From the NCBI GenBank assembly GCA_001443365.1, contig LDXL01000008.1, positions 1 through 64,000 on the forward strand: DNA of 64,000 nt. Direction: 5' to 3'. Origin of the DNA: Thaumarchaeota archaeon CSP1-1 (lineage in GTDB: Archaea; Thermoproteota; Nitrososphaeria; Nitrososphaerales; Nitrosopumilaceae). The translations under genes were made by a program, and so were the position numbers. The notes below the pieces were generated by a model. That model had not been told where the DNA came from. It searched no databases and was given only the letters and a program-made list of their open reading frames with translations. Of this stretch, positions 23,856 to 60,823 are shown piece by piece; position 1 is the stretch's first letter; each line of letters starts with the position of its first letter.

Positions 23856-24617
23856 CTAGTTTTTTCTAGATACGGAATAAACTGGATACATGTACTTCAT
23901 CCCAACAGAACATGAATTAATCATTTGGTATTGATAATTATGAATTTTTTTCACAGTCCTATACATATCACTTCCAATGACTATGGCATTTTTTTCTGCA
24001 ACATGATTAATTTTCGTACACATGTTAACAGGTGTACCAAAAACATCTATGGTTGAAGAATTATTAGTCTCCATAATGCTGACTTCGCCATAATCTGCAC
24101 TTATACGATAGTCGAGAGATGGTAATTTTTGTTTTTTAAGAATATAATTTATATTTTCATGCTCTTCTGTCATTTTCAAACAACATTCTAAACAATTCTT
24201 AAAGTCATAACTCTTAGATGATTCTGATGAATCTGGAAAATAAAACAGAAGACTATCTCCAATATTTTTAATAACAAACCCCCCATGTTTCTCAACAATT
24301 TGTGCCATAGAATTTAAAAAAATCTCATAATATTTTGATAGTTTTTGCTGTGTAAGGGAAGCAGAGATTTTTGTAGAATTCACAATATCTACCAAGCAAA
24401 CACAATAATTTTGAGAAGTCTCCAAAAAATTTACCACGTAGTGTGGTGTTTCAGGATTTAACTTTACCACATCTATGACGGAATTCTTTCCCCTTGTAGT
24501 TGAATGAACATTTTTCAAGTGTTGATTTACTTCATCTTTAGAAGGAAAACTCTTCCCACAATAGTAACATTGACTCTTAGTCGAATGTTTTTCTAAATCC
24601 GTCATGTCTGAAATCAT
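23856..24617 (-). CDS. C2H2 zinc finger fused to class III nucleotidyl cyclase
   Basis: 253 residues. Residues 17-38 form a C2H2 finger (Cys17, Cys20, His33, His38; CYYCGKSFPSKDEVNQHLKN). Residues about 70-250 form a class III adenylate/guanylate cyclase domain: metal Asp77 (LVDIVNSTK), Asp121 and substrate Lys117 (IKNIGD), Asp191 (IDVFG). The Lys/Asp pair points to ATP. Transition-state Asn198 is present, but the usual Arg four residues on is Lys202. No membrane span; a finger on a cyclase is unusual. See the second cyclase at 56435-57295. Confidence 0.85.
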   Translation of the reverse strand: MISDMTDLEKHSTKSQCYYCGKSFPSKDEVNQHLKNVHSTTRGKNSVIDVVKLNPETPHYVVNFLETSQNYCVCLVDIVNSTKISASLTQQKLSKYYEIFLNSMAQIVEKHGGFVIKNIGDSLLFYFPDSSESSKSYDFKNCLECCLKMTEEHENINYILKKQKLPSLDYRISADYGEVSIMETNNSSTIDVFGTPVNMCTKINHVAEKNAIVIGSDMYRTVKKIHNYQYQMINSCSVGMKYMYPVYSVSRKN

Positions 24618-55341: not shown

Positions 55342-56181
55342 TCATAACTTCATAATTTTTATGAACTCATCTAACCTTTCAGATAATTTTTCTTTTACTC
55401 TAACTGGGATCTTTTTTGGATCAAACATTCCTTCCTTGACATTGTTTTTGAAGTGTTCTAAATCAAAACTGCAAAGACATCCTTCTTCTCCTGTAACTAA
55501 TTTTGAATCATCAATTAAGACTGACGTAGTTTGATAGATTTCCATCAGCAAATTATCAAGTTCATTAAACAGTTGTTTTTTTCTTTTAAGAAGATCTTGA
55601 ACGTTACTCTCTGATTTTCCTTCAATTTCTTTGTATATTTTATCCCGTAAGTCATCGTTTTCATAAAAAACCTGGAAAAGATCTTTATGCTCAAGATCTT
55701 TATATCCAATCTCTTTGAGTTTTTCCAAGATATATTGATCGCTATCTTCAGCCAGTTTTGTTTCTGTATTTTTTGTCTTATCAATAATTTCTGCAAGTTC
55801 TTTTTGGTATTCTATTACCTTGTTATCTGGTTTATAGAACAGTAGAACATGAAACTGAATTGACATATGGCATGACAGGAGATAATTTCCTTCTTTCAGT
55901 TCAAATTTGACAAAAATTCGTCTTAAATCCTCATTATTTGTAATAGAAATATCACGTGAAACCCAATCTGGCAAGTTTTTTATTATTTTTTTAAAATATT
56001 CTTGAACAAGTATTGGATCGAAAGTATTCTGTTCTGCTATTGTACTATCTCCTAGCATACCTTTAACAGTAACTGTTCTAGTGAGTTCTTTCATTTTTTC
56101 GAGAAATAGTTTTTGAATGCTTTCGTTTTTATTATTTAATAATTGAATAAATTCATCTGAGGATTTGATGCCAAGACGCAC
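55342..56181 (-). CDS. Hypothetical protein, 279 aa
   Basis: 279 residues, soluble. Mixed alpha/beta N-terminal half (NYLLSCHMSIQFHVLLFYKP), charged helical middle (KELAEIIDKTKNTETKLAED) and a possible metal motif EEGCLCSFDLEHF. No family recognised; probably a lineage-specific gene. Confidence 0.7.
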   Translation of the reverse strand: MRLGIKSSDEFIQLLNNKNESIQKLFLEKMKELTRTVTVKGMLGDSTIAEQNTFDPILVQEYFKKIIKNLPDWVSRDISITNNEDLRRIFVKFELKEGNYLLSCHMSIQFHVLLFYKPDNKVIEYQKELAEIIDKTKNTETKLAEDSDQYILEKLKEIGYKDLEHKDLFQVFYENDDLRDKIYKEIEGKSESNVQDLLKRKKQLFNELDNLLMEIYQTTSVLIDDSKLVTGEEGCLCSFDLEHFKNNVKEGMFDPKKIPVRVKEKLSERLDEFIKIMKL

Positions 56182-56302
56182 ACCTTTTGGAGAGGCTCAT
56201 CTAATAAAATCTTACAGCATATTGGCTAAATACCTGTTTTCATCAGTATCAACCTTTTGATGAAAGACATGATTTTAAATAGGAAATTTGAGGAAATAGT
56301 TT

Positions 56303-56425
56303 ATGGAGGCCGAAAAAATCATCTGCTGGAATTGTAGTGCAGAAATTGTTCAATATTACAATGAAGGTTATAAAGGCAAACGAGCAAGATGCCCAATTTG
56401 TGGTGTAGATTTTCCTCTAGATTAG
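56303..56425 (+). CDS. Zinc-ribbon microprotein, 40 aa, upstream of cyclase
   Basis: 40 residues with CWNC (8-11) and CPIC (30-33), a compact zinc ribbon (MEAEKIICWNCSAEIVQYYN start). The cyclase gene starts 9 nt after its stop, so the two are almost certainly cotranscribed. The other cyclase of the window carries a zinc finger fused to it, which suggests the partners interact. Confidence 0.6.
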   Translation: MEAEKIICWNCSAEIVQYYNEGYKGKRARCPICGVDFPLD

Positions 56426-56434
56426 GAATAAAAT

Positions 56435-57295
56435 ATGACTGAAAATCAAGAAAATTCTAATAATGATTTAATGGAACAACACCCTCATTCAGAATCAAAC
56501 AAAAATTCTACCTCTCAGAAAAACACGCATGATCACAAATCCCTAGATTATGTAGACATTATTCTCAGTAGAAAAGGAACAAAAGTTGTCGATTTAGAAA
56601 CTCTTGTTAAAGAAACTCAAAAAAGATTGTGGGCTGCATTAAAACAAGGTTATGAATATGAATCGACAATAATTGATGAATCTGAAAGATTTCTACGCGA
56701 TCTAGTTTCATCTAGAGTCAATATGATCGTTCTATACGTTGATTTAGTTGGTTCGACTGAGATCACACTTTCCCTGCCTGAAGAAAAGGTAGCAATAATC
56801 ATTAGATCATTTGCTCAAGAAATGTCATCCATTATTATGCAGCACGATGGTTATGTTCTAAAATTTGTTGGTGATGCAGTGATCGGTTATTTTGTTGCTG
56901 AAGCCATGCCACTGCTAGCCACAGACAATGCAGTAAATTGTGCAAAAGCAATGGTAACTGTAGTGGAAAAAGGCATGAATCCAATCTTGAATCAATATGA
57001 TTATCCTGAATTAAAGATAAAGATAGGTATGGATTTTGGACAAAACATCATAGTACGTTATGGTGCTGATAAAGAAAAATCTCATGTGGATATTCTGGGG
57101 CCTTCAATGAATATTGCGTCAAAGATCCAAAATACTGCTTCCCCAAATCAAATTCTAATTGGTGATGATGTGTACATTAGATTGCATCCAGATATACAGA
57201 AACAATTTAAACAAGTTGTTTGGACTCAAACAAACTGGAAGTATCATGATAGAGAAACAGGGAGATTATATCCAGTGTATGCTTATGTAGGATAA
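56435..57295 (+). CDS. Class III nucleotidyl cyclase
   Basis: 286 residues. Low-complexity N-terminus (1-35), a helical linker (about 40-95), then the cyclase domain: Asp103 (LYVDLVGST), Lys143 and Asp147 (LKFVGDAVIGYF), Asp219 and Asn226 (VDILGPSMNIAS). Lys/Asp specificity residues favour ATP. The usual transition-state Arg is Lys230, the same change as in the cyclase at 23856. No membrane span. Confidence 0.87.
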   Translation: MTENQENSNNDLMEQHPHSESNKNSTSQKNTHDHKSLDYVDIILSRKGTKVVDLETLVKETQKRLWAALKQGYEYESTIIDESERFLRDLVSSRVNMIVLYVDLVGSTEITLSLPEEKVAIIIRSFAQEMSSIIMQHDGYVLKFVGDAVIGYFVAEAMPLLATDNAVNCAKAMVTVVEKGMNPILNQYDYPELKIKIGMDFGQNIIVRYGADKEKSHVDILGPSMNIASKIQNTASPNQILIGDDVYIRLHPDIQKQFKQVVWTQTNWKYHDRETGRLYPVYAYVG

Positions 57296-57321: not shown

Positions 57322-57471
57322 CTAAACTGTAAATTTTTCAGGACACTCTACGTGTTCGTAATGATGATCTGTAAATTTATCTTGAATTACATAAATTACA
57401 ATTTTATGTAATTCATAGGTACGAATATTTTTTTTGCATTTAAGGCAGTTCTTTCTTCTTAATTCCTTCAT
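57322..57471 (-). CDS. Small Cys-containing ORF, 49 aa
   Basis: 49 residues with C-L-K-C (9-12) and a single later Cys (MKELRRKNCLKCKKNIRTYE start, HVECPEKF near the end), like half of a zinc ribbon plus His. Convergent with the cyclase gene. No family recognised. Confidence 0.45.
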   Translation of the reverse strand: MKELRRKNCLKCKKNIRTYELHKIVIYVIQDKFTDHHYEHVECPEKFTV

Positions 57472-60700: not shown

Positions 60701-60823
60701 ATGTCTAAGGCTACCTGTCCTTACTGTGAATCAGTTTTTGAAAGTAATGAAGAACTCTCAAAACACATAGATAGAATTCATCATGGTTCTGGTCTATTAG
60801 AGGGAGATTCCAGGAAATTCTAA
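60701..60823 (+). CDS. C2H2 zinc-finger microprotein, 40 aa
   Basis: 40 residues containing a single classical finger: Cys6, Cys9, His22, His27 with spacing C-x2-C-x12-H-x4-H (CPYCESVFESNEELSKHIDR). It closely resembles the finger fused to the cyclase at 23856. It ends 2 nt before the HD-domain gene, suggesting cotranscription. Confidence 0.6.
   Translation: MSKATCPYCESVFESNEELSKHIDRIHHGSGLLEGDSRKF

Follow-up and report, generated by a model that had tools for sequence, protein, structure and literature searches.

Directly in front of a gene for a class III nucleotide cyclase, the thaumarchaeal genome studied here encodes a zinc-ribbon microprotein of 40 aa. What is this small protein for? 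An earlier, sequence-only reading had proposed that it binds the cyclase and controls it. The window, i.e., the whole stretch of DNA that was analysed (64,000 nt), comes from an assembly of 1.36 Mb whose named close relatives are Nitrosopumilales/Nitrosopumilaceae. Of its four genes for class III cyclases, the window contains two; a third is on contig C5, and the fourth lies further along the window's own contig, C8. The locus contains the following features.

55342-56181, minus strand: gene for a 279-aa protein without Pfam match, divergent from the operon across the shared promoter region; present in 78 of 80 loci of relatives
56275-56281, plus strand: heptamer TTAAATA, similar to a TATA box, 28 nt ahead of the start codon of the ribbon
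56303-56425, plus strand: gene for the 40-aa C4 zinc-ribbon microprotein, characterised by invariant Cys, its AlphaFold2 fold and purifying selection
56426-56434, plus strand: gap of 9 nt from the ribbon stop to the ATG of the cyclase
56435-57295, plus strand: gene for the class III nucleotide cyclase (286 aa), above the cut-off of Pfam Guanylate_cyc
57322-57471, minus strand: gene for a 49-aa Cys/His microprotein (CxxC ... HHYEHVEC), convergent with the cyclase gene and adjoining its 3' end; present in 73 of 80 loci

The ribbon, its gene and its promoter

The product of the ribbon gene (56303-56425, plus strand) is MEAEKIICWNCSAEIVQYYNEGYKGKRARCPICGVDFPLD. It is a short one-domain protein with two CxxC-type knuckles (C-x2-C-x18-C-x2-C), and its C-terminus reads FPLD here and FPLE in most relatives. 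The four Cys are invariant in the 37 homologues compared, and so are Y, G, R and FPL. The pooled omega of about 0.14, obtained with synonymous sites near saturation, indicates purifying selection. AlphaFold2 models a confident zinc-ribbon fold (pLDDT 92), and the protein presumably binds zinc. A Pfam search of the ribbon gave zero families above cut-off. The nearest folds of the model are the Rpb9 ribbon of RNA polymerase and ZifS, a small zinc-finger protein of Thermus (TM 0.7-0.8 over about 38 residues), both weak matches with E >0.1. The folds are alike, and no sequence relation was seen. Zinc ribbons are too short and too common for such a likeness to imply function.

The coordinates of the two open reading frames (56303-56425 and 56435-57295) agree with the earlier statement that the ribbon ends 9 nt before the cyclase. 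The claim of cotranscription also held up, on the evidence of a single conserved TATA box located before the ribbon alone. Of 71 loci, 58 have a TATA-like heptamer at -38 to -22 relative to the start of the ribbon, with a peak at -28/-29; at the matching place before the cyclase start, it occurs in none of 72 loci. Hence, the ribbon and the cyclase appear to be cotranscribed as a two-gene operon. In archaeal promoters, such a TATA spacing goes with a leaderless or nearly leaderless message, which would start at the ribbon here. TTAAATA is probably the promoter of this (nearly) leaderless two-gene mRNA. In relatives, the median gap between the genes is 10 nt, with all three frames represented, so the pair is not a hidden fusion.

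A leaderless first cistron and a short gap would also suit a ribbon ORF that is chiefly a leader, through which translation of the cyclase is coupled, and whose peptide is only a by-product. Nevertheless, the ribbon is under purifying selection, its Cys and its tail are invariant, and related paralogues occur elsewhere without a downstream cyclase. A mere leader is therefore highly improbable.

Conservation of the gene pair in relatives

Scanning a single genome of each species yielded 80 loci with the closest cyclases; 71 of these have the ribbon immediately upstream of the cyclase. In a second genome set, it is directly upstream in 44 of the 57 Nitrosopumilaceae genomes having the main cyclase, and in 17 of 22 genera. 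Absence or distance of the ribbon in most relatives, named by the sequence-only reading as evidence against its proposal, is thus not what the 80 loci and 57 genomes contain. As for the exceptions, the ribbon of locus L064 has lost its fourth Cys, locus L112 holds a decayed remnant, and the others have no remains or unclear ones.

The conserved adjacency is weaker evidence of interaction than it appears, because the whole gene block is syntenic. Around the cyclase, the 279-aa gene is present in 78 of 80 loci, the 49-aa gene in 73 (76 testable), a 128-aa gene in 71 (73 testable) and the ribbon in 72 (79 testable). A threonine-dehydratase-like gene is also conserved there, as well as the ribbon or better. 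The ribbon is the least stable member of this block. The argument from adjacency hence stood in so far as the pair is conserved in most relatives; it was weakened by the synteny of the whole block, from which the ribbon has been lost more often than its neighbours. Adjacency alone was rejected as proof of a ribbon-cyclase interaction, the entire block being syntenic. The 49-aa microprotein, which has a weak DUF7576 match, usually lies 3-47 nt from the end of the cyclase match and is better conserved than the ribbon.

The two genes can also live apart. In several lineages, e.g., G004, G007, G009, G018 and G021, the cyclase is kept and no ribbon match was found. The cyclase remains intact where the ribbon was lost or has decayed. 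In genus g15 (G034 and G017), the ribbon has kept as its neighbour the divergent gene, which is 44% identical to that of the window, and has biotin-synthase-like genes downstream. The cyclase orthologue of this genus (54%) is located on a different contig with no ribbon adjoining. No ribbon homologue was found upstream of cyclases of the Nitrososphaeraceae type or of other families of the order.

Neighbours on either side that are conserved equally or better would be expected if the ribbon had an unrelated function and owed its place beside the cyclase to slow rearrangement of the block in Nitrosopumilaceae. The many ribbons found elsewhere with neither a cyclase nor a regulator adjoining fit such hitchhiking as well. 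We nonetheless regard it as improbable, since one promoter is common to the ribbon and the cyclase and paralogues of the ribbon adjoin other cyclases far above chance.

The cyclase and the case for direct control

The cyclase matches Pfam Guanylate_cyc with 52.3 bits (curated cut-off 21.9, E 7e-14). It consists of a disordered N-tail of about 35 aa, a helical region and the catalytic domain. All 128 distinct main-group orthologues retain the metal residues Asp103 and Asp147 and the adenine-type residues Lys143 and Asp219. At position 226, Asn is found in 112 of them and Ser in 16, and Lys230 occupies the position of the canonical transition-state Arg in all 128. The enzyme is thus like the canonical adenylate cyclases CyaC (1wc1) and CyaB (3r5g) in its fold, metal Asp residues and adenine-type Lys, and unlike them in Lys230; their transition-state Asn-Arg pair is absent. 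The same replacement of Arg by Lys is present in the aligned BcPycC (7r65) and EaPycC (8jsf), and EaPycC is active (PMC11224242). The enzyme may therefore be active despite Lys230. A dead enzyme was considered and not adopted, as the aligned PycC enzymes carry the same Lys. Judging from these residues, we expect the cyclase to be active, with ATP as its substrate.

The relation to Pycsar requires a closer look. The cyclase resembles the PycC enzymes (clades A-E) in that its best fold match is EaPycC (8jsf), and PADLOC PycC profiles give its best defence-profile score (E 7e-33). Thaumarchaeal cyclases may share a branch with PycC. However, the pocket is adenine-type (Lys143/Asp219), unlike the published pockets of BcPycC (Y/D/R), AnPycC (F/K/F) and EaPycC (F/R/Q), and the gene is fixed in a syntenic core block and not in a mobile defence island. 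No effector with a cyclic-nucleotide receptor (PycTIR or PycTM) adjoins the cyclase; the genes around it encode the ribbon, the 49-aa microprotein and proteins that carry no domain of this kind. Membership of Pycsar was rejected on the base pocket and the missing effector.

A Pycsar enzyme does, nevertheless, offer a precedent for direct control. Clade D Pycsar cyclases carry at their C-terminus a fused zinc ribbon that contacts the opposite protomer, and activity is lost when its Cys are mutated (PMC11224242). By analogy, the 40-aa ribbon would bind the adjacent cyclase and control its activity, for instance by helping the dimer to reach its active form, and the free module would play the part that a fused one plays elsewhere. 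The tight ribbon-cyclase operon in most genera speaks for this role, as do family members adjoining two separate cyclase types. The clade D ribbon, on the other hand, differs from the 40-aa ribbon in ligand pattern and position.

The sequence-only reading had based its case for binding on the other cyclase of the window (23856-24617, minus strand). Its description of that enzyme was right: a C2H2 finger is fused to the N-terminus. The step from this fusion to an interaction does not hold. The nearest orthologues, in G001 and G003 (same genus, 80-82% identity), start without the finger, yet their upstream DNA is recognisably similar. The simplest reading is that the finger is a recent insertion, found in this genome only. 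The fused module is thus a C2H2 finger and not a C4 ribbon, and it is limited to one genome; for these reasons, the Rosetta-stone argument fails. No ribbon-cyclase fusion occurs among the ribbon matches in 300 genomes of the phylum. A free 40-aa C2H2 microprotein encoded at 60701-60823 (plus strand) is a possible source of the inserted finger.

Coevolution and structure prediction were also used. In a partial mirror-tree comparison, the ribbon-cyclase value (0.11, p 0.06) shows no excess over control neighbours (0.11, p 0.01 with the divergent gene). AlphaFold2 was run on a read-through fusion of the ribbon and the cyclase, with both in one frame, stops written as Gln and 28 in-frame paired relatives aligned. 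In the model, the ribbon and the cyclase are each good, and the linker between them is disordered (pLDDT 32-40). Its pTM of 0.71 is about that of the cyclase alone, the latter being our own estimate, and, there being no PAE, the model gives no information about docking. Neither result lends specific support to direct binding of the ribbon to the cyclase. With these results, a cyclase that is intact after ribbon loss or decay, ribbons that persist away from it and the lack of fusions, control by direct binding is a rather unlikely role for the ribbon, although it is the chief competitor of the role that we prefer.

The wider ribbon family and cyclic-nucleotide signalling

A profile search with the ribbon revealed a wider family with two main types of extreme C-terminal tail, FPLE and W[PA]ES. 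Matches were obtained in 45 of 300 genomes of the phylum; 43 are Nitrosopumilaceae, and the matches in the other two have E near 1e-3. The family is new, specific to Nitrosopumilaceae and linked to cyclic-nucleotide genes. In 27 well-assembled genomes, 15 ribbons were found outside the main locus. For seven of these, another class III cyclase is encoded at most 2 kb away, where 0.11 would be expected with uniform placement. The Poisson probability of this enrichment (3e-11) is merely indicative, as the loci may share ancestry and the clusters could partly be orthologous.

Transcription regulators are frequent neighbours too. Indeed, 11 of the 15 outlying ribbons have next to them, mostly within 110 nt, a winged-helix regulator whose domains are of the HVO_A0261/TrmB/FilR1 type. 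The orientation of the clusters varies, from downstream tandem in this genus to divergent or convergent elsewhere. Contig C5 of this genome (L148:3319-5145), for instance, has a cyclase, a ribbon with an NWAES tail and a FilR1/TrmB-like winged-helix regulator in succession on one strand. A second FPLE ribbon, 74% identical, is located on contig C8 outside the window (L147:3902-4024), flanked by a TFB gene on one side and an Lrp/AsnC regulator on the other; no cyclase is near it. In G033, G048, G008 and G011, a ribbon stands with a regulator and no cyclase is found within 2 kb. Many ribbons outside the main locus adjoin neither, and the main ribbon-cyclase locus has no winged-helix regulator. 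The relatives of the ribbon are tied to the winged-helix regulator at least as tightly as to cyclases, which argues for a wider regulatory role. The family is thus linked to cyclases as well as to transcription regulators, and one of the two by itself does not account for it.

A small zinc-finger protein with such a role is known from Halobacterium. Brz is encoded directly upstream of bop and is required for bop mRNA, and small zinc-finger genes like it occur alongside the Bat-type regulators of the same organism (PMC2253796). Like Brz and the CPxCG proteins of Halobacterium and Haloferax (PMC2253796, PMC11241148), the ribbon is a very small, one-domain protein of zinc-finger type. Its gene, like that of Brz, which controls its neighbour, is directly upstream of and co-directional with the adjoining gene. 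In contrast to these proteins, the ribbon has a C-terminal FPLE/WPES tail, a link to class III cyclases and a range limited to Nitrosopumilaceae. Its sequence has no match to characterised CPxCG members, and the paralogue on contig C5 reaches only E 0.03 to HVO_0758.

Our preferred answer, held at slightly less than even confidence, is that the ribbon is a small accessory regulator of the cyclic-nucleotide module, similar to Brz, and not an obligate subunit of the cyclase. The ribbon and the cyclase would be read as one operon from the promoter that immediately precedes the ribbon. The microprotein would serve as a zinc-ribbon contact module that tunes the transcription or the output of the adjoining genes, and it might act together with a winged-helix regulator where one exists. 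Such a Brz-like role fits the ribbons paired with winged-helix regulators, the ribbon beside TFB and the cyclases that do without a ribbon. The lack of an obvious DNA-binding element in the ribbon and that of a winged-helix regulator in the main locus count against a role of this kind. Both the regulatory role and its target are what we infer for the ribbon, and much of this evidence would suit direct binding to the cyclase too.

Downstream of the cyclases, the canonical receptor is missing. The cyclic-nucleotide-binding domain PF00027 (cNMP_binding) was found neither in this genome nor in any of 120 Nitrosopumilaceae genomes, whereas it was found in 10 of 14 control genomes and in all three tested genomes from other families of the order. 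Each of the surveyed genomes encodes between one and five class III cyclases, whose active sites are conserved. In the library searched, the literature contained nothing specific on a thaumarchaeal cyclase system. For these ammonia-oxidising archaea, a pathway free of CRP-type receptors could be imagined, in which the cyclases would signal via ribbons paired with FilR1/TrmB-like regulators, the ribbon coupling both and the type of tail setting the partner. This is speculative, and we consider it quite unlikely.

Nitrosopumilaceae rank among the most abundant marine archaea. The ribbon gene family provides named candidates for cyclic-nucleotide signalling in these archaea, in whose 120 surveyed genomes the canonical receptor domain was not found.
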